From positions 1-43,491 of the forward strand of contig NSIB01000006.1 in the NCBI GenBank assembly GCA_002737625.1: a stretch of DNA of 43,491 nt, read 5' to 3'. The translations under genes and the position numbers were made by a program. Positions within the stretch are counted from its first letter, which is position 1; the number at the start of each line of letters is the position of its first letter. This document shows positions 8,189 through 39,625 of the stretch, piece after piece. The notes under the pieces are model-generated. The model saw only the letters and a program-made list of their open reading frames with translations. It had not been told where the DNA came from and ran no database searches. The DNA is from Flavobacteriales bacterium (GTDB lineage Bacteria; Bacteroidota; Bacteroidia; NS11-12g; UBA955).

Positions 8189-8320
8189 ACAATAAATCCC
8201 CAAAAAATATGATGGCCAATTTTTCGGAGCAACTGATTGGATTTTTGCATTTATTAATAGAAACCGATGCCACAAATTGAATGTGCAGTTTGTCTGTGTT
8301 ATATTCACGAAACAAATCGC

Positions 8321-10600
8321 ATGCGTAAAACATTACTTTTCGTTATTCTCTTATTTTCATTGACTGCCGCTCATGCGCAATTGAATTACCGTAGCAATCT
8401 GAATGGTTTCAAGTTGATGGATGGAACAACTCAAATAGAAAATCCGTTTTGGGGAGGATTTAATTCGCCTCAATTCCAGCACATGGATTTGAATGGAGAT
8501 AAGTTGTTGGATATCATTGTTTTTGATCGGTATGATTCAAAGGTGATGCCATTTTTAAGACTTCAAAATGATGTGTTTCAGTATGCGCCTGAATACGAGG
8601 CATCGCTTCCGAAGGGCCTGTACTATTATAAAACTGCGGATATCAATAGTGATGGAAAATTGGATATTTTTACCCTCTCTGAAAGTAGCAATCTCCTTAT
8701 TTATATCAACCAAACAACTGCAGGTTCCAATAAATTAAAGTTCAATGGCCTTGGTCCTTGGTATTATCGAAATCAGTTTGATTCTAGCTTTTTCAATTTA
8801 TACAACCCGTTGAGTTTTTCAAAGTTCGACATGCCAGAGATTTCCGACATAGATGGGGATGGGGATTTGGATATTTTATCATACGATCAAGGAAATTACA
8901 CCTACAGATTATTTAAAGACGTTCGAGCTGAGAAAAAATGGTCCAAAGACACATTTGAATTTCAAATTATGGATGTTTGCTTTGGTTATTTCAACGAGGG
9001 ATTTGACAATTCGATCTTATTGGGTGAATGCCCATACAAAGACAAGCTAAAGCCAAGACATACAGGGGGTGCAACTTGTTTGATGTACGATGCGGATGCG
9101 GATGGTGATAAGGAATTGATGATTTCAAATATCGGCTTCCCAAGATTCACCTACTTGAAGAATGGAAAAGCGCAGGCCAAATCCTATTATGATACGATGG
9201 TTGCCTATGATACCATTTTTCCCAGAAATACTGTCGCAGCCAACCAAATTATGTTCCCAGCAGGTTATTTGGTAGATATCAGCGGCGATGGTGTTCAAGA
9301 TCTTGTGATTGCACCCAACAATTTTACCGATGTCAAAGAAACCAATCAAGTTTGGTATTATAAGAATTTAGGTCAGAGCAATAAGCCAAATTTCCAGTTT
9401 GAAAAATCAACTTTGTTTACAGATAAAACGTTGGATTTAGGCGCTCGAACCGCCCCTGTTTTTGTTGACATTGATGCGGATGGGGATCAAGATTTGTTGG
9501 TTGCAAACAATGGCGATTTTGAAATCACCAAAGGATTGAGAGATCGAATTGCTTTGTTTGAGAACACAGGCAATGCCCAAAATCCAGTTTTCACAATCAA
9601 GGATAGAGATTTTATGAAATTCTCAGATTCTTCTAACTTGGCGTATCAACACATCTTGCCAAGTGTGGGTGACATTGATAGCGACGGAGACTTGGATTTG
9701 ATTATTGGATTAATCAATGGTAGGATTGCTTTGTATGAAAATACAGCGGGAGCCAACAAACCGGTGAAATGGGTATATAAAACCCGAGATTTATTAAAGG
9801 TATCCTTGGAAATGGGAGAGACAAATGCTGCGCCATTTCTTTACGATTACAACGCCGATGGGAATATGGATTTATTGGTTGGGTATTACAACGGTCGGGT
9901 TTCATTGTTTGAGGCCGCAAATAAGACCTATAATAACTTCATTCTAAAATCTAGAAATGCTTGGGGTGCAAGAGGCAATGAATGGAGAGAAGATGTAACC
10001 CCTGGTGATTGGAAGGCATTTGGTTATGCAGTTCCCCGCGTTGCTGACTTAAATGGCGATGGGAAAAAGGAATTTATTGTGGGTACTGCTTACGGCTACA
10101 CTCGATTGTATAAAATTGAAGGACATCCATATACAGATTCATTACTAGCAGATAGCAGTTGGTTCTTCCAATATACCGTTGCGGATTCTACGATGCCTAA
10201 AATGGGTTCACGCGTTGTTCCTGCCTTTGCTGAATTGACGGGTGATTCGCTGCAAGAGATGGTTTTTGGCTTGGGTAGAGGTGGTTTGATGTGGGCAAAT
10301 TCGTTGAATACTAAAAAGCTACCTTCTAATGTTAAGCCTTTGGAATCAATTTCTGCCAATTTGTATCCCAATCCTGGATCCAATTTTGTTGTCTTATCTC
10401 GCACAAAAGGAGCGCCAGCATCAGAATGGAAAATCGAATTGTATAATTTACAGTCGCAACTGCAATATGAAACCCATCTGGGTTCAGGTGAACAGGGTGT
10501 AGGGATACCCATTCAAGATTTAAGTAATGGGGTGTATTTTGTGAAAATCACCAATTTAGAAGGACAGAATTCGTCAATCAAACTGATTGTACAGCACTAA
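8321..10600 (+). CDS. Secreted FG-GAP/VCBS repeat protein with type IX secretion signal (type A)
   Basis: A surface or secreted protein of about 759 residues. The start is placed at ATG 8321 because it gives a clean signal peptide (MRKTLLFVILLFSLTAAHAQ); a longer in-frame ATG at 8267 would bury it. About nine repeats carry Ca-binding-like D-x-[DN]-x-D-G motifs, such as DLNGDKLLDI, DIDGDGDLDIL, DIDADGDQDLL and DLNGDGKKEFI, as in FG-GAP/VCBS beta-propellers. The last 75 or so residues begin LYPNPGSNFVVL and contain LSNGVYFVKI, the type A sorting domain of type IX substrates. Predicted: export by Sec, then secretion and surface attachment by the type IX system. Ligand unknown. Its 3' end overlaps the convergent ABC ATPase gene by 23 bp. 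Confidence 0.88.
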   Translation: MRKTLLFVILLFSLTAAHAQLNYRSNLNGFKLMDGTTQIENPFWGGFNSPQFQHMDLNGDKLLDIIVFDRYDSKVMPFLRLQNDVFQYAPEYEASLPKGLYYYKTADINSDGKLDIFTLSESSNLLIYINQTTAGSNKLKFNGLGPWYYRNQFDSSFFNLYNPLSFSKFDMPEISDIDGDGDLDILSYDQGNYTYRLFKDVRAEKKWSKDTFEFQIMDVCFGYFNEGFDNSILLGECPYKDKLKPRHTGGATCLMYDADADGDKELMISNIGFPRFTYLKNGKAQAKSYYDTMVAYDTIFPRNTVAANQIMFPAGYLVDISGDGVQDLVIAPNNFTDVKETNQVWYYKNLGQSNKPNFQFEKSTLFTDKTLDLGARTAPVFVDIDADGDQDLLVANNGDFEITKGLRDRIALFENTGNAQNPVFTIKDRDFMKFSDSSNLAYQHILPSVGDIDSDGDLDLIIGLINGRIALYENTAGANKPVKWVYKTRDLLKVSLEMGETNAAPFLYDYNADGNMDLLVGYYNGRVSLFEAANKTYNNFILKSRNAWGARGNEWREDVTPGDWKAFGYAVPRVADLNGDGKKEFIVGTAYGYTRLYKIEGHPYTDSLLADSSWFFQYTVADSTMPKMGSRVVPAFAELTGDSLQEMVFGLGRGGLMWANSLNTKKLPSNVKPLESISANLYPNPGSNFVVLSRTKGAPASEWKIELYNLQSQLQYETHLGSGEQGVGIPIQDLSNGVYFVKITNLEGQNSSIKLIVQH

Positions 10601-16774: not shown

Positions 16775-18091
16775 TTACTGTAAATTCAAAAGTAAGTCAG
16801 CAACCACAAAAGTGCTACCCCCTACATAAATCAAATCTTGGGGTCTAGCGTCTTTGAGAGCCATGAAATAAGCCGTTTGGACATCATCAAAAGCCATGCC
16901 CGCTAATCCTATTTCATGGCCTTCCGTGGCCAGTTCGTCTGCATCCAAACCCCTAATAACACTTGGTTTACAAAAGTAATAGATAGCATCCTTTGGAAGC
17001 AATGAGAGAATTTCCTTTCGGTCTTTGTCGGAAACCATGCCCCAAACCATTCGAATGATTGGCGGTTGTGCGTTAATTTCAATGGCAGAATTGTGATTTT
17101 CAATAAGATTGAGTTTCCACACTTCAACGGCCTTTGCATATTGATCCCGCAATTGACCCATCGTATAATTAATCCCATCTGAATTGTGCGCGATATCAGT
17201 AACCGTCCAAGGATTGTTGGAAATAACTTCCCACCTACCTCTTAAACCAGTCAAGGAAACCACATTTTCCAAGGCTTCCATAATTAAACTGCGCTTCAAT
17301 GGTATCCATAAATCTTTTAATGCTTCAATGGCATAAGCAAATGTTTGAATATTCTCGAGCTGGTAATTGCCTTTCAACGCCAAACGACGAATAAAACCTA
17401 CATCCACTGCCAAATCATGATAGATTTTAGCATTGTTTTCTATGGATACAGCCTTCATTACGTCCATCGCTTCATTGCGCATGGGTCCTAAAGCCACAGG
17501 AACTCCACGTTTAATAATTCCAGCCTTCTCCGCTGCGATTTTATCGATGCTATTGCCCAGAAGGTCCATATGATCCCATCCTATATTTGTAATTACAGAT
17601 AGGATAGGAGTGATCACGTTTGTACTGTCCAACCTTCCTCCGAGTCCCACTTCAATCACCCCGATATCGATTTTCTCCGCTCTAAAATGATAAAAAGCCA
17701 AAGCAACCGTGATTTCAAAAAACGAGGGTTTGATTCTATCCAACGTCTCGTGAATCTCATTCATGAAATCAATCACCGTTTTTTCATCGATGCACTTGCC
17801 ATCGATTCGAATGCGTTCGGTGAAGTTCAAAAGGTGAGGAGATGTATATAAGCCGGTTTTGTATCCGTGTTGCGTTAAGGTAGCTGCCAACATGCTAGAA
17901 ACCGAACCTTTTCCGTTGGTTCCGGCCACATGAATCCATTTTTGATCTATGTGAGGGTTTCCTATGGCCTCAAGCAAAGCAATCGTGTTGTTTAAATCTG
18001 CCTTGTAAGCTGCTTTCCCAATGTTATGAAACATGGGCAATTGACTAAACATGTAGTCTAGGGTTTCACTATACGAGGTAAACCTCGGCAT
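16775..18091 (-). CDS. folC: Folylpolyglutamate synthase / dihydrofolate synthase
   Basis: A Mur-ligase-fold enzyme that adds glutamate to dihydropteroate and folates. The 438-residue protein carries the P-loop VAGTNGKGS (55-63) and the FolC signature GLGGRLDSTN (GxGGRxDxTN), followed by SVITNIGWDHMDLLG. The C-terminal domain starts at IAHNSDG, with the conserved His-Asn. The start codon overlaps by one base (TAATG) the stop of the TonB-like gene, indicating coupled translation. From memory, a TonB-like gene beside folC is a recurring arrangement in Bacteroidota. Confidence 0.93.
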   Translation of the reverse strand: MPRFTSYSETLDYMFSQLPMFHNIGKAAYKADLNNTIALLEAIGNPHIDQKWIHVAGTNGKGSVSSMLAATLTQHGYKTGLYTSPHLLNFTERIRIDGKCIDEKTVIDFMNEIHETLDRIKPSFFEITVALAFYHFRAEKIDIGVIEVGLGGRLDSTNVITPILSVITNIGWDHMDLLGNSIDKIAAEKAGIIKRGVPVALGPMRNEAMDVMKAVSIENNAKIYHDLAVDVGFIRRLALKGNYQLENIQTFAYAIEALKDLWIPLKRSLIMEALENVVSLTGLRGRWEVISNNPWTVTDIAHNSDGINYTMGQLRDQYAKAVEVWKLNLIENHNSAIEINAQPPIIRMVWGMVSDKDRKEILSLLPKDAIYYFCKPSVIRGLDADELATEGHEIGLAGMAFDDVQTAYFMALKDARPQDLIYVGGSTFVVADLLLNLQ

Positions 18092-18927
18092 TAAAAAGAT
18101 TTCGTTACGTTTAGTGTGACCAATGCACTTTCACCACAGCCTTCGCCATTTTTTGCAAATGTTGATTCATTTAAGAAATCGCGGAATATTCGCATCATAT
18201 CGCCGTCATCACCGTTCCATGAAGTTCCTTTCACGTTCCATTCAACTACGCTCCATTTTCCGTTACAATCAATCCTAACCCTGGCGATAATTACGCCAAA
18301 TGCATCTGTTCGGGGGTTATTGTAATTGGAACTCATCGCATATTTCGTGAACTTATTGCTAAAATTCGCCCCTCCCTTATTCCCAGTCACTCGATCGCCA
18401 AAATTACCAGTAACGCCGCCACTTGTGCCTCCTTTACCCGAGCCAGTGCTTCCGGTTCCGTTTTTCCAACCGTTTGGATCGCCTTCGCCACCCTTACCAA
18501 CCCGTTTGCCAATTTTGGTCATATCTACCTTGATTTTCGGATTGTCTGATGCAGGTCGATTTGAACTCGGTGGGTCAATCGGAGGTAGACTCGCACTTTC
18601 TGGTTGCGCTTCACTCGTTACTACTGGACCAGCACCACCACTTTGCGGTTGATTTCTTTGAGGTCCTTGAGAAGGGTCGCCGCCCAATTTTGGTGGAGTT
18701 GGAGATGGGCCGCCATCGGTAGGACGACCAAAACTAGGATCTTCCACCATGCCAAAGTCTAAAATCAAATCCCCTTTCTTATTTTCAAACGGGGGATTTG
18801 GAATCGAAATATGCACAAAATACAGCATCAACAAGATGATTGCAGACGCAATCAGAGCTATCACCCATGAAACAGCGCGCTGGCCGTTTGTAGTTCTAAG
18901 GTTTTCCTCAATTTGATAATGTGCCAT
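18091..18927 (-). CDS. TonB-like energy transducer
   Basis: A 278-residue inner-membrane protein with a short cytoplasmic N-terminus, one transmembrane helix (about 18-40) and a long Pro- and Gly-rich periplasmic linker (about 44-195). A compact C-terminal domain (about 205-278) contains GVIIARVRIDCNGKWSVVEW, like the TonB/TolA C-terminal fold. Predicted role: carrying proton-motive energy to an outer-membrane receptor, possibly the barrel protein encoded two genes upstream. No exbB or exbD gene is in the window. Neighbouring genes overlap by one base at each end (TGATG upstream, TAATG downstream), so the three-gene block is translationally coupled. Confidence 0.8.
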   Translation of the reverse strand: MAHYQIEENLRTTNGQRAVSWVIALIASAIILLMLYFVHISIPNPPFENKKGDLILDFGMVEDPSFGRPTDGGPSPTPPKLGGDPSQGPQRNQPQSGGAGPVVTSEAQPESASLPPIDPPSSNRPASDNPKIKVDMTKIGKRVGKGGEGDPNGWKNGTGSTGSGKGGTSGGVTGNFGDRVTGNKGGANFSNKFTKYAMSSNYNNPRTDAFGVIIARVRIDCNGKWSVVEWNVKGTSWNGDDGDMMRIFRDFLNESTFAKNGEGCGESALVTLNVTKSF

Positions 18928-20045
18928 CAGTTATTCCAATCTAACGCGATATCGGATACCGATAATGTACCCGTTGGCAAAATTTTAATCGTCTCAGCAT
19001 AATCACTTGCCAATCTATCAGATTCAAATCTGCCCAATACTACCTTATATAAACTCGATTTTTTTCCCTTGATTAAACACGCATCAATTCCTAAACGCTG
19101 CCACAATAGACATTCCCTTTCACCCAAAGAAGGAGTGAGGTACGCGCCGCCAACGATTACAAATTTTCCTTTTATCTCGATATTGGCTTGTTTAAATTCA
19201 GCAATACCATCAATTCCTTGAGCATATTTCAACTGGTGCGAAATGACTGTGGATTTGGCTGATTTATCGTCCCCTTCACTTTCGTCGACAATGATAAACT
19301 TGTCAATATTGGATTTGATCGGAGTATTTATCTTGATTTTTTGACTGTCTTGTGGAAATAATGTTGCCATGTGATTCCCAGTGCTCACAGACCAAATCTG
19401 AGCGATGCTTAACAATACGCCGGCTCCAATACTGATAATTGCAAATGATGCCGCCATTCGCCAAAGTACTGGCGTTTTTCTTTTAGATTCTGTAAATTCA
19501 CTGTGCTGCTGTTCTAAAGAAAATTCAGAATCAATCGGAGTACTGTCTATAACTCCATCTATCAACTCAGTATTTTTATCGCCAATCAGTGGCAATGTGG
19601 TTTCAGAACGATAAACGGGTATATCCTTCCAGTGCCAATCGATGATTGGTAAGCCATAAGTTTGCTTACTTAAATTCAAGGTTGGGCTTGCAAGGAAGAA
19701 CAAATCACCCATCGCATTTCTATGAAACTTTCCTAAATCACCCATGGAAATGGCGTGCGTAGTTGTACAATTGGTGTTGAGTGCATTGAACTCTGTAATC
19801 AAAAGATTTGATGATTGTCTGAATTGCAATCCACAGATTTCCTTGAGTTCGTTGGCTACAAATCCATCATCTTCTTGAATATTTGAATTAAAGAAAAGCG
19901 TGTGAATACTGGGCTTGAGTTGACCAGAAAATGGGTTGGCCATGCCATAATTTTTGCGAAGAATAAAAGCACCAAAACCCGGAATTACAGCACATTCGTA
20001 TTTGTATAAAACACGGGTGATTGCCATTACTAATGCGGGATTCAT
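18927..20045 (-). CDS. HU/CCDC81-like domain protein with transmembrane helix and SPOR domain
   Basis: A 372-residue protein. The N-terminal part (about 1-125) resembles the HU-fold of the CCDC81-like prokaryotic family: a start like IPGFGAFIL, then GDLGKFHRN. One transmembrane helix lies at about 197-219, with positive residues before it (ESKRKTPVLWR). The C-terminal part (about 292-357) looks like a SPOR domain (KFVIVGGAYLT, then YKVVLGRFES), which in other proteins binds glycan strands lacking stem peptides. Predicted topology: HU-like domain inside, SPOR in the periplasm. It is the second gene of the barrel operon and overlaps the TonB-like gene by one base. The function of the family is not known to me; a septal or nucleoid-envelope link is inference. 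Confidence 0.78.
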   Translation of the reverse strand: MNPALVMAITRVLYKYECAVIPGFGAFILRKNYGMANPFSGQLKPSIHTLFFNSNIQEDDGFVANELKEICGLQFRQSSNLLITEFNALNTNCTTTHAISMGDLGKFHRNAMGDLFFLASPTLNLSKQTYGLPIIDWHWKDIPVYRSETTLPLIGDKNTELIDGVIDSTPIDSEFSLEQQHSEFTESKRKTPVLWRMAASFAIISIGAGVLLSIAQIWSVSTGNHMATLFPQDSQKIKINTPIKSNIDKFIIVDESEGDDKSAKSTVISHQLKYAQGIDGIAEFKQANIEIKGKFVIVGGAYLTPSLGERECLLWQRLGIDACLIKGKKSSLYKVVLGRFESDRLASDYAETIKILPTGTLSVSDIALDWNN

Positions 20046-20078
20046 AATACAATATTACGGCTATTTTTTAACTCTTCC

Positions 20079-21800
20079 TCAAAACAACGACAGTGATAGT
20101 CCGCCCATTATAGTGGTACCATAGTTTTTATAACCATACCACTGCTGATATTGATTGTTTAGGAGATTGCTACCTTGAATCCAAATCCTACCTTTACCAG
20201 AAAGTCTGTAATCGAGTCGTGCATGAATATCCATATACCCTGGCATTTCCTTGGTTTGAGGCTTCCCATTTACGATGACCTGATTTCGACGCTTGCTTAC
20301 ACCGTCTAAGCCACACTGTATTTCGATTGATTTACCCAAGTAATATTGACCTGATACACCATAGGTAAGAGAGGGTAGATGCCAAGCGTAATCATTTCTA
20401 TCCACGTTGTAACTTATCACTTTGGCATTGGCGGACAATTTCAACTGCTCGCCAATTTTATACTTGACCAAACTCCTAAAATACACACTGTTTACATCGG
20501 CATAGATGAATTGTAAAGAACCTAAACTATCGGACATTGCTTTTTTCTTGCCTGAAACCATCAAAGAATCGGCTCGCGAAACCACCAAAGCGAAGTTTGA
20601 AGAAGAGTTGCCTCCAAAATCCAAAGCAAATTCAGCATTTTCAGTGATTTTCCCTTTGATTCCTAGGTATCCGTTGAATTGTTCGTAGGTGTTTTTAATA
20701 GATACTGAATCGCCAGTAAATGGCACAAATGAATTCATTCTACGGAAACTATTCTTCTTTAATCCACCATCAATTCCGCCATAGATTTTCAAGTTGAGTC
20801 CTGTAAGCGTCTTTTCCACTTCTAGATACGGGTTGACATATAATTTGCTTGTCGTGTTTAGTGTGTCGATGGTCTGTGTCCAATTTGTTAATAGCACACC
20901 AAATTTCACATCCAACTTAGTGGGTTGATGGTTGAATTTTACATAAGGTAGGGCATCAATAAATAACTGTTTGTTTTGACTCAAACCATTGAATTTATTG
21001 GTGTCTGGCTTTTGCTGCATATCTAAATATGTGGCACTCAAATCAGCACCCCAAATTACATTTTTCACCCGATGGGAAACATTGAGATAACCGCTAAAAT
21101 CCATTTCTTTTTGATAAAATGATCCAGTATTAAATGCCTGTGCGGCAATGCCAGTATGGATTGAAGGCCTTTTCCCGCTGGCGATGAGATCGTAATCTAC
21201 ACCCAAACCAAAATGGTTGCTTATTTTTCCGGTGTTAGTGATGCTTGGTTTATCATAGGCCGAATCCTTTGCGAAGAAATTGATTTTATCGATGTTGTAA
21301 AAAACCTTTGTTTCTAAGCCGGAATTCTGGAAATATTTGGCTCCTTTTAATTGGAATTTATTGGTTGAAAATTCGCGAATAGAATTGGCTGGGTTGGCAT
21401 TTAAATGTAAGCCACTGAAATTGTAGCTGTAATTCGGATTGGCTTTGCTACTTAAATAGAGTTCTCCGAGGATATGCCCATAATTACCGCCGCCAATTCT
21501 GGCGTAATTGGATAGGTAAACAGAATCTGAACTCTTATCCTTTAGTTTTTCGGGCTGCACTGGACGAATGATCTTTCTCGTATTCCAAGCAAATTCAGGT
21601 GTTTCGAACTTAACATTAATTTTGGGGTTTTCCGAGCGGGGTACAGTTGGATCTAATACCAACTTTGAGGATGGGATGAGTTTGGGCTCGAATTTGGTGG
21701 TTACCTGACGCGACGAATTGTCGATTCCTCGATTTCCTGGTTGGGCAACAATAGACGCACCAACAAGCGTTGTAAGTCCAATTAGAATAACACTTTTCAT
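20079..21800 (-). CDS. Outer-membrane beta-barrel protein, TonB-dependent-receptor-like
   Basis: A 573-residue protein with a signal peptide (MKSVILIGLTTLVGASIVAQ). From about residue 90 there is a long series of alternating hydrophobic/polar strands typical of outer-membrane barrels, ending in NYGTTIMGGLSLSLF with a terminal Phe. The last segment (LNNQYQQWYGYKNYG) resembles the C-terminal strands of TonB-dependent receptors. No plug domain is visible, since the region before the barrel is short and Pro/Lys-rich. It is the first gene of the operon with the HU/SPOR, TonB-like and folC genes. Substrate unknown. Confidence 0.75.
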   Translation of the reverse strand: MKSVILIGLTTLVGASIVAQPGNRGIDNSSRQVTTKFEPKLIPSSKLVLDPTVPRSENPKINVKFETPEFAWNTRKIIRPVQPEKLKDKSSDSVYLSNYARIGGGNYGHILGELYLSSKANPNYSYNFSGLHLNANPANSIREFSTNKFQLKGAKYFQNSGLETKVFYNIDKINFFAKDSAYDKPSITNTGKISNHFGLGVDYDLIASGKRPSIHTGIAAQAFNTGSFYQKEMDFSGYLNVSHRVKNVIWGADLSATYLDMQQKPDTNKFNGLSQNKQLFIDALPYVKFNHQPTKLDVKFGVLLTNWTQTIDTLNTTSKLYVNPYLEVEKTLTGLNLKIYGGIDGGLKKNSFRRMNSFVPFTGDSVSIKNTYEQFNGYLGIKGKITENAEFALDFGGNSSSNFALVVSRADSLMVSGKKKAMSDSLGSLQFIYADVNSVYFRSLVKYKIGEQLKLSANAKVISYNVDRNDYAWHLPSLTYGVSGQYYLGKSIEIQCGLDGVSKRRNQVIVNGKPQTKEMPGYMDIHARLDYRLSGKGRIWIQGSNLLNNQYQQWYGYKNYGTTIMGGLSLSLF

Positions 21801-22625: not shown

Positions 22626-23144
22626 ATGACAAACCTCACTCCAAAATATCCCTCGGATTCATTTACGCTTATGAATGAAATTGTATTGCCTAACGATACC
22701 AATACATTGGGAAATTTGATGGGAGGTAGACTGTTGCATTGGATGGATATTTGTGCGGCTATAGCCGCCCAAAAACACAGCCATCATATTGTGGTTACAG
22801 CAGCAGTCGACAGTGTTTCGTTCAAAGAAAGCATTCGATTGGGAGATGTAGTTACGCTCAAAGCCTATGTATCTAGGGCATATAATTCTAGTATGGAAGT
22901 ATTTATTGAAGTATTTGCAGAAAATTTGCCTTCGGGCGGTAGGGTGAAATCCAATGAAGCCTATTATACATTTGTGGCATTAGATGGTAGAAATAAACCT
23001 GTAACAGTTCCAGAGTTGACTCCACAAACGGAAGAGGAAGTGCTCAAGTATGAGGGTGCTTTACGCAGACGTCAGGTAAGATTGATTCTCGCTGGCAAAA
23101 TGAAGCCAGAAGATGCGCAAGAGTTAAAAAATCTCTTTGTATAA
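22626..23144 (+). CDS. Acyl-CoA thioesterase, hot-dog fold
   Basis: A 172-residue cytoplasmic hydrolase of acyl-CoA esters. The N-terminal hot-dog region shows NDTNTLGNLMGGRLLHWMD, matching the N-x-x-G-x-x-x-GG motif of YciA/BFIT/BACH-type thioesterases, where the Asn/Asp around the helix is catalytic. It continues with AAVDSVSFKESIRLGDVV. The C-terminal 40 residues (RRRQVRLILAGKMK) are basic and helical. Alone between the rpmA terminator and a convergent dioxygenase. Substrate chain length cannot be told. Confidence 0.88.
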   Translation: MTNLTPKYPSDSFTLMNEIVLPNDTNTLGNLMGGRLLHWMDICAAIAAQKHSHHIVVTAAVDSVSFKESIRLGDVVTLKAYVSRAYNSSMEVFIEVFAENLPSGGRVKSNEAYYTFVALDGRNKPVTVPELTPQTEEEVLKYEGALRRRQVRLILAGKMKPEDAQELKNLFV

Positions 23145-26121: not shown

Positions 26122-26216
26122 TCCTAACAACTTACTGTCAATTCCTTATCGAAAAGTCACAATCATACATAAAATCACCGATTTTTGTATAAGAAGTAGG
26201 TGTTTTGCTGTTAGGA

Positions 26217-29200
26217 ATGATGATAAGAAACTGTGTACGCATGATTTTTTTTAATTTACAGCAGGCAATTTTTGCTCTGCGCGTGCAAGTATTTTCATTT
26301 TTTTTGCTTATTTCCGCAACTGCTTTCGGCAATGTGGTATATCCAACCCAAGAGTCAGCAGGAGAACCTGTTTTCATATTAAACAAAGGTCAGTGGCCAA
26401 AAGGTGTATTATCCAAGGTACATCTTAATATTGGCGATTTGTGGATTACCCAATCAGGATTTGTATGGAATTTGTTTGATTCCTCTGCTTTTGAAAAACT
26501 GCATGATCGTACAACGCAAACATTAAAGATTCCAACGCAAGCCGTGTTTATGGATTTTATTAAACCCACCGGCGTTGCTCACGTGACAGGCTCTGGTAAT
26601 GCATCAAGCGAATATTATAATTATCATAACGCAAGAGGCAGTTTTACAGAATTACATAAATACAGTAGCGTAATCATTTCTCATGTTTGGCCCGGTGTAG
26701 ACTTAGAGGTGAAATCATTTCAAAACACAATTAAATACAATTGGATTGTTCATTCAACTACGAATCCAAACATTATTCGATGGAATTATAGAGGTGAAAA
26801 CACCCTCGAATTAAGTGCCTCAAAACAGTATTGTAGAATTAAAACCAATATCGTTGATTGGACGGAAGAAATTCCTGCTGTATACTACAATGGATTAAAG
26901 GGTGGGATAGATGAGGGTCAATCCGAGAATTCGATACTAAGTACGAATTATGTCCAATTTGATGATGGTAGCTTTCAATTCAACATCAAGAATTTGGATC
27001 TAAAAAATAATCGTGATTTGGTAATTGATCCCAAATTGGTTTTTAGTACCTATACCGGATCTAGAGCAGACAACTTTGGATGCACGGGAACCTATGATAT
27101 TTACGGAAATGGGTATGCTGGAGGTACTGTTTTTGATGTTGGATTGCCTGTAACCCCTGGTGCTGCACAAACAACATTTGGTGATGGGGTATCTGAAGAT
27201 TTGGGATATGGGGGTTCAAGGGATGCGGCCATTTTAAAGTTCAACGCTACTGGTAATCAATTGCTGTTTTGTACTTATTTGGGAGGGTCGAATAATGAGC
27301 AACCCCATTCCATGGTCACAGATTCATTGGTTAATTTGTATGTGATGGGGTCTACCCGAAGCACGGATTTTCCGATGGGTGCCAATGGACAATATGATAA
27401 TTCGCACAATGGGGGATACGATTTTTTTATTACCAAATTTAATTCTACTGGCACAACAATTTTAGCCTCTACGTTCTTTGGCGGCACTGGAATGGATGCT
27501 GTGGGCGCTGATAGATCGGCAACAGGTGTAAGTGTGGATGATTTTCCACTGATTTATAATTATGCCGATGAGTTTCGTGGTGAAATCATCACAGATCAAA
27601 AAAATATTTATGTTTCTGGCATTACATATAGTTTGAATTTTCCAAGAACGGGCAATGGGGCCTATGGTGGTAAATCCGATGCCGTAGTATTTTGTTTGAA
27701 TAACTCCCTCACAATGCTAAAATGGTCGCAGCAGTTTGGTGGGGGTGGGTTTGATGCGCTCTACGGTGTTGCTTTGGGTAAATCAAATGATGTTTATGTA
27801 AGTGGTGGCAGTTCCAGTAATAATTTGAAAACAGTGATTGGTTCCAAGTGGATAAACGATTATCAAGGAGGCATTGCTGATGCGATTTTAATGCGATTGG
27901 ATAAGTATACGGGTGACGTTTTACAGGGTCGATATCATGGCACATCGCTTTATGAACAAGCCCATTTCGTACAAACAGGGCTTACCGGAAAACCCTATAT
28001 TTATGGTCAGACTGAGGCCAATATGCCCAATCTGAACGCAAGGTTTTATCAACCTGGAGGCGGTCAATATATTTCTTGTTATTCCATCGATCTATCATCG
28101 GTAGATATGCAAACTACGTTCGGTTACAATGCCAGCAACATTATTTACCCCAACATCAGCCCAAGTGCTTTTTTGGTTGATAGATGCGAACGAATTTTCG
28201 TTTCTGGATGGGGTGGAAGTACCAATTCTGCATTGTATGATGTCAATACCGGTACCCCAAAACAACATCGAAACAAAGGCAGAACAACTGGATTGCTTAC
28301 AACAGCTGATGCCGCACAGAAAAATACCGACGGCAGTGATTTTTATATTGCTGTATTCTCAAAAAACTTTTATTCTTTGGCTTATGCTACTTTCTTTGGT
28401 GGGGTAAGTACTCCGGGGAAAACGGCTGAGGAACACGTGGATGGTGGTACCTCGAGGTTCGATGCAAAAGGCATTATCTATCAGTCCGTTTGTGCGGGAT
28501 GTAGAAGGAATGGATTGTTTCCAACCACGCCTACGGCGTACAGCAGAACAATGAATAGTAACAATTGTAACAATGCGCTATTTAAAATCGACTTTGAGAA
28601 CCTCAATTTAAAACCTCGGTTGAAAGACACATTTGTTCAGGTAATAGCCACCCAGCCCATTAATTTCCAAATAAAAGGGGTAGATCCAGATCCTTTTGAT
28701 ACAATGTATTTGCGCGCCACATGGATTAAAAAGGGTGGAATGAAGGGGGCTGACACGGCAAAATTTACATTAATTCCAGGGATTGGCTCCGCGACTCTGA
28801 AGTTGGATTGGAAAACCCTCTGTAGCAGTTTTTCTAAAGACACCATTGAATTACTTGTTACGGTAATGGATCGAGGATGCCCAAAGGCCGATACAACCTA
28901 CGCTAGAATTAAAATACTCGTTACAGAACCCCCAAAAGTGATTCCGCCTGATGCCATTTGTGTGAGTTTTGATCGGCAAACATCAAAAATGTCGATCTCG
29001 TGGAATAACATCGCAACACCCGGATCATTTTTTAAATATTTCCTTCTGCGTAGAACCAATCCAGATGGTTCAATGAAAATTCTCGATACCATTAGAAGCG
29101 GTTCTGCAGATGTTTATGTGGATGGGAATGTGGTAAATCCACGACAGAATAATTACTGTTACGAACTAATTGGTGTGAATATTTGTGACGTACAAGTGTT

Positions 29201-30074
29201 TGCGAAAAATATATTTTGTACCGTTGTTGAATTGAATACCCCCATCGCGGGCGTCCCTTTGTATACAACAACTATCGTAAATGACCGATACGCGGAAATT
29301 CGTTGGGGCAGGAGTCAGGAACCAGATTTTAAGGAATATGAACTGTATCGAATTCCACGGGGTGGGAAATTTGGGAATGTTCCATTGGCAATAACCACGG
29401 ATACGTTTTATCGGGATTCGTCTTTTAATGTCGATGATCGGTCCTACTGTTACCAGATAATGGTCACAGATCAATGTGGTCATGTGAGCTCTGGAAGCAA
29501 TGAAGGATGCAATGTGGTTTTGGGTGGCACGTCTAAAGAAGCACCAGATTACTATTTCGACTTAAATTGGATGGATTATCAAGGATGGGCTGATGGTGTG
29601 AGAGATTGGACATTGGAGCGGAAAGATGATGACCATGCCTTTGTTGTTATGGCTCCATCTTTAATGGTTCAGAGCTATCATGATGATAAGTTGGACTACG
29701 ATTATGGTGGATACTTATATCGAGTTACTGCGCATCGAAATCAGTTGATGGCAGCAGAACAATCATACAGCGAGAGCAATTGGATCTATTTAATTCAACC
29801 ACCAGAAGTTTGGGTGCCAAGTGGGATTACGCGTAATAAGGATGGGTTAAACGATGTCTGGGGCACTTTTCCGTTGTTCGTTAAGGAATATGAGATGAAA
29901 GTCTATAATCGTTACGGACAAAAGATTTGGGAAAGTACCTATAAAAAGAACCAATGGGATTGTCAGTATCAATCCAACGAAATTCCCGATGGCGTTTATG
30001 CGTGGTACCTAGTTTTTAAGGGTTGGGATAAAAAAACGTACGATAAGGCTGGCACCGTAACGGTAATACACTAA
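26217..30074 (+). CDS. Large secreted beta-propeller protein with type IX secretion signal (type B, CHU_C)
   Basis: A 1285-residue protein. ATG 26217 is chosen; a TTG at 26205 and ATGs at 26220 and 26241 are alternatives. All give a signal-peptide-like segment (RVQVFSFFLLISATAFG). Next comes a region of about 200 residues of the DUF7948 type (FILNKGQWPKGVLSKVHL, YKWIVH-like YNWIVH, IDPKLVFSTYTG). A set of SBBP-like propeller repeats follows to about residue 760 (TYLGGSNNEQPHSMVTD, FFGGTGMDAVG, FFGGVSTPG), then Fn3-like segments. The last 85 residues (WVPSGITRNKDGLNDVWG, YNRYGQKIWES, DGVYAWYLVFKG) are the type B C-terminal domain of type IX substrates. Predicted to be secreted or surface-exposed; possibly adhesive. 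It ends 3 nt from the convergent polyprenyl synthase. Confidence 0.88.
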   Translation: MMIRNCVRMIFFNLQQAIFALRVQVFSFFLLISATAFGNVVYPTQESAGEPVFILNKGQWPKGVLSKVHLNIGDLWITQSGFVWNLFDSSAFEKLHDRTTQTLKIPTQAVFMDFIKPTGVAHVTGSGNASSEYYNYHNARGSFTELHKYSSVIISHVWPGVDLEVKSFQNTIKYNWIVHSTTNPNIIRWNYRGENTLELSASKQYCRIKTNIVDWTEEIPAVYYNGLKGGIDEGQSENSILSTNYVQFDDGSFQFNIKNLDLKNNRDLVIDPKLVFSTYTGSRADNFGCTGTYDIYGNGYAGGTVFDVGLPVTPGAAQTTFGDGVSEDLGYGGSRDAAILKFNATGNQLLFCTYLGGSNNEQPHSMVTDSLVNLYVMGSTRSTDFPMGANGQYDNSHNGGYDFFITKFNSTGTTILASTFFGGTGMDAVGADRSATGVSVDDFPLIYNYADEFRGEIITDQKNIYVSGITYSLNFPRTGNGAYGGKSDAVVFCLNNSLTMLKWSQQFGGGGFDALYGVALGKSNDVYVSGGSSSNNLKTVIGSKWINDYQGGIADAILMRLDKYTGDVLQGRYHGTSLYEQAHFVQTGLTGKPYIYGQTEANMPNLNARFYQPGGGQYISCYSIDLSSVDMQTTFGYNASNIIYPNISPSAFLVDRCERIFVSGWGGSTNSALYDVNTGTPKQHRNKGRTTGLLTTADAAQKNTDGSDFYIAVFSKNFYSLAYATFFGGVSTPGKTAEEHVDGGTSRFDAKGIIYQSVCAGCRRNGLFPTTPTAYSRTMNSNNCNNALFKIDFENLNLKPRLKDTFVQVIATQPINFQIKGVDPDPFDTMYLRATWIKKGGMKGADTAKFTLIPGIGSATLKLDWKTLCSSFSKDTIELLVTVMDRGCPKADTTYARIKILVTEPPKVIPPDAICVSFDRQTSKMSISWNNIATPGSFFKYFLLRRTNPDGSMKILDTIRSGSADVYVDGNVVNPRQNNYCYELIGVNICDVQVFAKNIFCTVVELNTPIAGVPLYTTTIVNDRYAEIRWGRSQEPDFKEYELYRIPRGGKFGNVPLAITTDTFYRDSSFNVDDRSYCYQIMVTDQCGHVSSGSNEGCNVVLGGTSKEAPDYYFDLNWMDYQGWADGVRDWTLERKDDDHAFVVMAPSLMVQSYHDDKLDYDYGGYLYRVTAHRNQLMAAEQSYSESNWIYLIQPPEVWVPSGITRNKDGLNDVWGTFPLFVKEYEMKVYNRYGQKIWESTYKKNQWDCQYQSNEIPDGVYAWYLVFKGWDKKTYDKAGTVTVIH

Positions 30075-38941: not shown

Positions 38942-39625
38942 GTGGAAAATCCAATTAGTATATCGCAGGCCACCATTCATCAAGGTAGCATCGCAATCTT
39001 ACAAAATGTCAATTTACAAGTATCTGAAGGAGAGTTTGTTTATTTGATTGGTAGAACTGGATCGGGTAAATCATCTCTGCTAAAAACCTTGTATGGTGAA
39101 TTGAAACTACAAGAGGGCAGTATCGATATTGCTGGATACGATTTGCAATCAATCAAACCCAAGGAAGTGCCATTTTTACGTCGAAAATTGGGTATCGTAT
39201 TCCAAGACTTTCAATTGCTTACGGATCGAAATGTTCTTGATAACCTGATGTTTGTGTTGAGTGCCACTGGTTGGAAAAACAAACACGAAATGCTGGATCG
39301 ATGCAAGGCTGTCCTGGAAAAAGTGGGATTGCAAACCAAAGACTATAAGATACCTGCAGAATTGAGTGGGGGTGAGCAACAAAGGTTGGTAATTGCGCGT
39401 GCTTTGCTAAACGACCCTAAAGTTTTGCTGGCCGATGAACCTACGGGTAATTTGGATCCAGAAGTCAGCGATGAAATTATGATGCTTTTAAAAAATATCG
39501 CCCGTGAGGGAACTGCAATTTTAATGGCGACACATGATTACCGATTGATTCAAAAATTCGGAGGTACTGTTTGTAAGCTTGAGGATCGGACCCTGAAACA
39601 AGTTGATTCTTTTCAAATCGTTTAG
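38942..39625 (+). CDS. ftsE: FtsE-like ABC transporter ATP-binding protein
   Basis: A 227-residue ATPase with Walker A GRTGSGKSS (near residue 37), a Q-loop in VFQDFQLLTDRNV, the signature LSGGEQQR and Walker B VLLADEPTGNLD. The Q-loop wording (FQDFQLL) and length fit FtsE, the ATPase that with FtsX signals to septal peptidoglycan hydrolases. No ftsX lies next to it, as I recall is common in Bacteroidota; a LolD-type ATPase is the alternative. The start codon is GTG. Ends 18 nt from a convergent membrane protein gene. Confidence 0.83.
   Translation: MENPISISQATIHQGSIAILQNVNLQVSEGEFVYLIGRTGSGKSSLLKTLYGELKLQEGSIDIAGYDLQSIKPKEVPFLRRKLGIVFQDFQLLTDRNVLDNLMFVLSATGWKNKHEMLDRCKAVLEKVGLQTKDYKIPAELSGGEQQRLVIARALLNDPKVLLADEPTGNLDPEVSDEIMMLLKNIAREGTAILMATHDYRLIQKFGGTVCKLEDRTLKQVDSFQIV

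Follow-up and report, generated by a model that had tools for sequence, protein, structure and literature searches.

Systems that resemble the gene cluster described here in one part or another include Tol-Pal, the TonB-ExbB-ExbD system with its TonB-dependent transporters, the proposed tether PorE and the HU-CCDC81 proteins. We encountered the cluster as a run of four genes, for an outer-membrane barrel, a membrane protein with an HU-CCDC81 head and a SPOR-like end, a TonB/TolA-like transducer and folC, in 43,491 nucleotides from a Flavobacteriales bacterium (assembly GCA_002737625.1, contig NSIB01000006.1); this whole stretch is called the window. For the bacterial CCDC81-HU proteins a role in chromosome partition was reportedly predicted by Burroughs in 2017, in work that may describe similar architectures.

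Passages of one published account (PMC12204202) report that tol-pal loci are missing from the Bacteroidetes and that Pal was undetected there, and propose PorE as a Bacteroidetes tether for the same missing function. The same passages include a thioesterase gene in the E. coli tol-pal operon and describe the transmembrane (TM) histidine of TonB/TolA transducers, within the SHLS motif.

Here we describe a gene set, its conservation, the predicted folds of its members and their predicted single-pass topology. The window genes are what remains here of an envelope cluster that is widely conserved in the Bacteroidia, which we take to be the class of the window. This cluster probably links the energised inner membrane to the outer-membrane barrel.

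Gene order in the window and its relatives

All four genes of the first-pass annotation are present; they are on the minus strand, with the features listed here.

20079..21800, minus strand: outer-membrane barrel, 573 aa; signal peptide at about residues 1-20, a conserved unstructured N-terminal stretch, then a predicted barrel of about 22 strands
21507..21740, minus strand: periplasmic N-terminal stretch (residues 21-98) of the barrel; no plug found, conserved motif at about residues 33-51
18927..20045, minus strand: protein with HU-CCDC81 double domain, TM helix and SPOR-like domain, 372 aa
19656..20030, minus strand: HU-CCDC81_bac domains 1 and 2 of that protein, residues 6-130, by Pfam (domain 2 below cut-off); predicted cytoplasmic
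19401..19457, minus strand: TM helix of the HU/SPOR protein, about residues 197-215, by hydropathy
18966..19178, minus strand: SPOR-like domain, about residues 290-360, from family-level evidence only; predicted periplasmic
18091..18927, minus strand: TonB/TolA-like transducer, 278 aa; TM helix at 14-37, Gly/Pro-rich linker, folded C-domain
18094..18348, minus strand: TonB/TolA-type C-terminal domain, residues 194-278; structure match to 2gsk_B (TonB)
16775..18091, minus strand: folC, 438 aa (NCBIfam TIGR01499, E 1.2e-91); conserved neighbour

The one-base overlaps claimed for the last three genes are there, as TAATG at both the HU/TonB-like and the TonB-like/folC junctions, and a gap of 33 bp separates the barrel from the HU gene. 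Apart from its first base folC lies outside the stretch 18091-21800 outlined in the first-pass annotation, and it is probably a passenger and not part of a complex.

A match to the HU/SPOR protein was found in 52 of 58 relatives, a set that includes the window's genome. Forty loci were fetched around such matches: the gene immediately upstream is the barrel in 36, the TonB-like gene comes at most three genes downstream in 39, and folC at most four genes downstream in 37 (L038 and L042 end at the contig end, and L056 is truly without folC there). In 16 of these loci exbB directly follows the HU gene. Our own open-reading-frame rule called exbD in 15 of the 16 and missed one exbD, in L059, where a search gave an ExbD match. 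In the taxonomic order of the window the neighbourhood runs barrel, HU-CCDC81/TM/SPOR protein, (exbB, exbD), TonB-like, folC. A barrel-seeded search yielded 40 named loci, and the HU-slot gene adjoins the barrel in 39 while the fortieth breaks off within the barrel; some of these loci are on contigs from genomes already among the 58 relatives, and the two sets are not independent. Lack of such neighbourhoods in other genomes had been named as grounds for giving up the set, and the genes do adjoin there. Since the order recurs in relatives and in other families, it is more than chance.

Conservation across the class and the TPR and ExbB/ExbD partners

Profile searches extended the comparison to the class. 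Of 119 class genomes 111 match the barrel profile, some (G098, G103, G134 and G163 among them) only over a short C-terminal part, as might be expected of any transporter barrel. The barrel is usually present once per genome, with two full copies in three genomes (G066, G108 and G124), and a scan of 148 genomes outside the class gave only partial matches, the best at 61.9 bits. The HU/SPOR profile matches 255 of 296 class genomes, in matches that were not each checked for SPOR.

The most constant companion of the barrel is a gene for a TPR protein of about 1000 aa. Among barrel-centred loci taken at about one per family (n=39, since L194 gave no barrel) it is found at most two genes upstream of the barrel in 37. 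When 60 genomes were drawn over the class the TPR protein was found in 55 (E 1e-50 or better), all 55 with a barrel match (E 1e-3 or better), and the two genes are within 1.5 kb on one strand in 51 of these 55. Barrel matches were found in 56 of the 60, those of G098 and G103 being short and C-terminal only; of the five genomes that lack the TPR protein, four have no barrel match either. In the window's genome the TPR protein is encoded on another contig; within the window's taxonomic order the barrel is beside the TPR gene in none of 10 TPR loci, and no TPR gene was found in the 40 HU loci.

The full order of TPR (about 1000 aa), barrel, SPOR protein, exbB, exbD, TonB-like and folC is seen in eight loci of two families (L193, L196, L274, L275 and L283-L286), five belonging to f40 and three to f16, whose anchors are without HU. 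In Roseivirga sp. E12 the run is TPR, barrel, SPOR protein, exbB, exbD and TonB-like, with one further gene before folC. Twenty loci were chosen on purpose from families with weak HU matches, and their rates are not class rates. The set proposed in the first-pass annotation thus extends to the TPR protein and an ExbB/ExbD pair, which in the window's genome are located elsewhere.

Exactly one short ExbB (under 262 aa) is present in 56 of the 58 relatives by our reading of the profile search, within the operon or away from it depending on the relative; a cut piece of 220 aa in G054 was left out of this count, as it is paired with a main-type ExbD. In the window genome the short exbB and exbD are on contig C33, beside purD-like and DUF502-like genes (named from sequence). 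A tree of 48 ExbB rows sets 44 short ones apart from four of the main type (99/97), and in it the copies that the window family has outside the operon sit on a long branch, amid copies from the operons of other families. A simple move of the window's exbBD out of the operon was considered and set aside, as this position fits move or replacement alike. For the two short ExbB tested the best NCBIfam model is TolQ, far below cut-off (E 2.3e-16 and 60 bits against a cut-off of 221 for the window genome's copy). The window genome has two main exbB loci as well, and ExbB and ExbD matches occur at identical coordinates in its contig C8 (L088) and in contig C11 of G008; a mis-binned contig in the window's assembly is possible.

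In 14 of the 39 barrel-centred loci the divergent neighbour of the TPR gene is a cluster with an FtsE-like ATPase, and the one member tested (L171) has FtsE as its best NCBIfam model, at 238 bits and below cut-off. The window itself encodes an FtsE-type ATPase (38942-39625, plus strand), also with FtsE as best NCBIfam model (242.9 bits, cut-off 264.85). A gyrB-like gene, named from sequence, directly follows the barrel in eight of the 39 loci (L182, L185, L202-L204 and L206-L208). Two other regions of the window, 26205-30074 and 8267-10600, both on the plus strand, encode large proteins that end in type IX secretion signals (CHU_C, Por_Secre_tail).

Predicted architecture of the barrel, transducer and slot protein

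The window barrel has no Pfam or NCBIfam match; one of 18 family members matches DUF2490, and three members tested had no NCBIfam match. Its AlphaFold2 model (predicted local distance difference test score, pLDDT, 73.9) has about 22 strands, counted by eye, from residue 99. The model resembles TonB-dependent transporters, with a best Foldseek E of 1.6e-16 and, in VIA, a match to FhuA 8a60_A at Z 22.4 (root-mean-square deviation, rmsd, 3.0; 453 aligned), which bears out the annotation of the protein as an outer-membrane barrel. Residues 21-98 were modelled at low confidence, and no Plug domain match was found in 18 barrel members. A plug hidden in the N-terminus was considered and not found by hhalign, at probability 0.3 against relatives' plugs, in a weak test (alignment of 16 of 30 loci, at least one mistranslated, and without a shuffle control). 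From the models the protein would be a 22-strand barrel of the TonB-dependent-transporter type without a plug. The N-terminus carries a motif at about residues 33-51, [VI]x..x[FY]xPx[LI]xxAxK....P, conserved across 96 distinct barrels.

For the TonB-like protein of the window no Pfam or NCBIfam match was found, and TonB_C was recognised by sequence in two of 19 family members. Its model (mean pLDDT 60.7) has the architecture of a TonB/TolA transducer, with one TM helix, a disordered linker and a folded C-domain. The six best VIA matches of this C-domain are all TonB or TolA, at Z 5.1-5.9, a range in which VIA warns of merely common arrangements, and the next match is at 2.9. Against TonB 2gsk_B the values are Z 5.6, rmsd 2.8 and 75 aligned, and against the TolA fusion 1tol Z 5.9 and rmsd 5.3. 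The TonB-like label given earlier is thus upheld by the predicted fold. The whole model had no plain Foldseek match at E 0.001 or better, probably because half of it is disordered.

The HU protein of the window matches Pfam HU-CCDC81_bac_1 (PF18174) at E 3.4e-9, over the cut-off, and bac_2 at E 7e-4, below it; on these sequence matches we are firm that an HU fold is present in the head. A single hydrophobic stretch is predicted at about residue 197, and one such stretch fits a protein with HU inside and SPOR outside. A SPOR match (up to E 0.1) was obtained in six of 18 family members, and the family profile matches the solved SPOR domain 1x60 at E 0.063 only. The arrangement of HU inside and SPOR outside, as first annotated, has therefore held for the HU domain and the hydrophobic stretch, while SPOR has support at the family level only. 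In the L135 and L147 families the HU/SPOR gene is directly followed by a thioesterase-like gene, so named by likeness to the window's product at 22626-23144.

The head varies. HU is missing from the f16 anchors (L196, L274-L276), whose heads, where the value was given, have net charges between +4 and -14 in the first 100 residues. In Roseivirga sp. E12 (L130:10726-11661) the HU slot holds a protein with a lysine-rich, histone-H1-like N-terminal tail, a TM helix and SPOR, without HU. What is constant seems to be a membrane-anchored slot, and neither its cytoplasmic nor its periplasmic end.

Candidate functions and comparison with described systems

Does this cluster take the place of Tol-Pal in these bacteria? 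Or is it a channel, a link to the nucleoid, or an ordinary uptake locus? Our preferred candidate is a proton-driven, division-linked tether that would join the inner membrane and the septal wall to the outer membrane in place of Tol-Pal, and we give it somewhat less than an even chance. Powered by the proton gradient, the ExbB-ExbD motor would drive movement of the TonB/TolA-like protein, the C-domain of which would pull on the barrel or on the TPR protein, and the SPOR protein would hold the complex at septal peptidoglycan. The outcome would be an energised tether from inner membrane through wall to outer membrane, where Tol-Pal acts in other bacteria. We infer that there is one complex, that it is motor-driven and that it acts at division. 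In its favour we count the recurring gene order, the short ExbB and the C-domain matches, the FtsE-like ATPase cluster beside the TPR gene, and a search of 60 class genomes, among them that of the window (73.6% complete), in which TolB_N was found in none. A full-text literature search, with subscription literature mostly outside its scope and so not proof of absence, returned no publication on this gene set. A more elaborate form of the idea we consider unlikely: a Bacteroidia counterpart of Tol-Pal that would draw in the outer membrane at division via a plugless barrel on a TPR scaffold, placed by SPOR, with a swappable head (HU, lysine-rich tail or none) also coupling it to the nucleoid.

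Several observations weigh against the tether. In most sampled families the HU/SPOR gene is located away from the barrel: the 39 barrel-centred loci have HU/SPOR downstream in six and exbB in four, and 38 HU-centred loci, chosen among the best matches with roughly one from each family (of 40 regions L169, a stub of 501 bases, was dropped, and among the other 39 L159 gave no HU), have exbB and TonB in four and the barrel upstream in one. The window protein alone gave no Pfam SPOR match up to E 1, and some slot proteins of family f36 (L277, L279 and L289) end shortly after the hydrophobic stretch, with no SPOR by eye. The low Z values of the transducer C-domain belong here too, as does the barrel motif, which is not a canonical TonB box. 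By sequence, the window's TonB-like protein has no histidine in the middle of its TM helix; such a histidine is present in 12 of 63 TM segments of TonB-like proteins, and several versions with exbBD in the operon are also without it. Because this histidine couples TonB/TolA to the motor, coupling in the window protein is doubtful, and that protein may be a passive tether. The one operon ExbD tested (L193) has ExbD and not TolR as its best NCBIfam model, one control Bacteroides genome does match TolB_N, and PorE is a published rival for the same function.

The main alternative to the tether is that the TPR protein and barrel form an outer-membrane channel or assembly machine, for polymer export or for lipid or protein insertion, energised by ExbBD/TonB and only placed by SPOR. 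These two genes are indeed the tightest pair of the set, adjacent in 51 of 55 genomes, the plugless model of about 22 strands allows an open or partner-filled pore, and glycosyltransferase-like clusters (c4, c7 and c12, named from sequence) flank some loci. However, no constant enzyme or substrate gene was seen adjoining the pair in the 39 barrel-centred loci, the divergent neighbour in 14 of them is FtsE-like, and known TPR-plus-barrel exporters have smaller barrels; we regard a channel or assembly machine as somewhat unlikely. Still less likely, and very much so, is an ordinary TonB-dependent nutrient uptake locus with chance neighbours. The transporter-type barrel fold with a TonB-like gene nearby would suit it, but no plug was found, and the barrel is present across the class, usually once per genome, with an identical order in several families.

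A connection between nucleoid and outer membrane, in which HU would hold DNA, SPOR the wall, and TonB and barrel the outer membrane, would make use of HU-CCDC81 domains that are real by Pfam, and the H1-like tail of Roseivirga stands in the same slot as if one DNA-binding head had replaced another. The basic character expected of a DNA-binding HU is, however, not seen in the net charge of the HU-CCDC81 head: over the first 140 residues the mean is -1.1 in 80 HU proteins (range -6 to +6), against +8.9 (range 7 to 10) in 11 canonical HU domains of relatives, a comparison of whole-domain net charge, not a surface map, in which 11 of 23 fetched canonical loci yielded a domain by the motif rule. 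As the head is not basic and HU is missing in some lineages, such as the four f16 loci, a connection to DNA is doubtful, and with this control the link from HU to DNA was set back; we consider a nucleoid link improbable. The first-pass annotation had the set spanning from DNA or cytoplasm to the outer membrane; the predicted locations do cross the envelope, and it is the DNA anchor, near neutral and not always there, that found no support.

How, then, does the favoured tether compare with what has been described? Like Tol-Pal (TolQ-TolR-TolA-TolB-Pal-CpoB), the cluster has a putative motor pair of the broad ExbB/TolQ and ExbD/TolR type, a transducer of predicted TonB/TolA type, a TPR protein and a proposed role in envelope tethering. 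Unlike Tol-Pal it has a transporter-type barrel and a SPOR protein instead of TolB-Pal, as judged from TolB_N in the 60 genomes, Pal not having been searched for. With TonB-ExbB-ExbD and the TonB-dependent transporters it shares the predicted folds of the barrel and of the TonB C-domain; it differs from them in a barrel in which no plug was found, usually in one copy per genome, and in the linked TPR and SPOR proteins. The window's HU protein belongs to the bacterial HU-CCDC81 family (PF18174/PF18175) by PF18174, but it has a TM helix and a SPOR-like end, sits in an envelope cluster and has a head that is not basic. PorE is, in the published passages cited above, a single fused CpoB-TolB-Pal-like lipoprotein, whereas the present cluster comprises several genes with their own motor, including a barrel that is found in 111 of 119 class genomes (some partial) and has no consistent Pfam family. 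The cluster names a further testable candidate gene set for the tether reported missing from a major group of gut and environmental bacteria.

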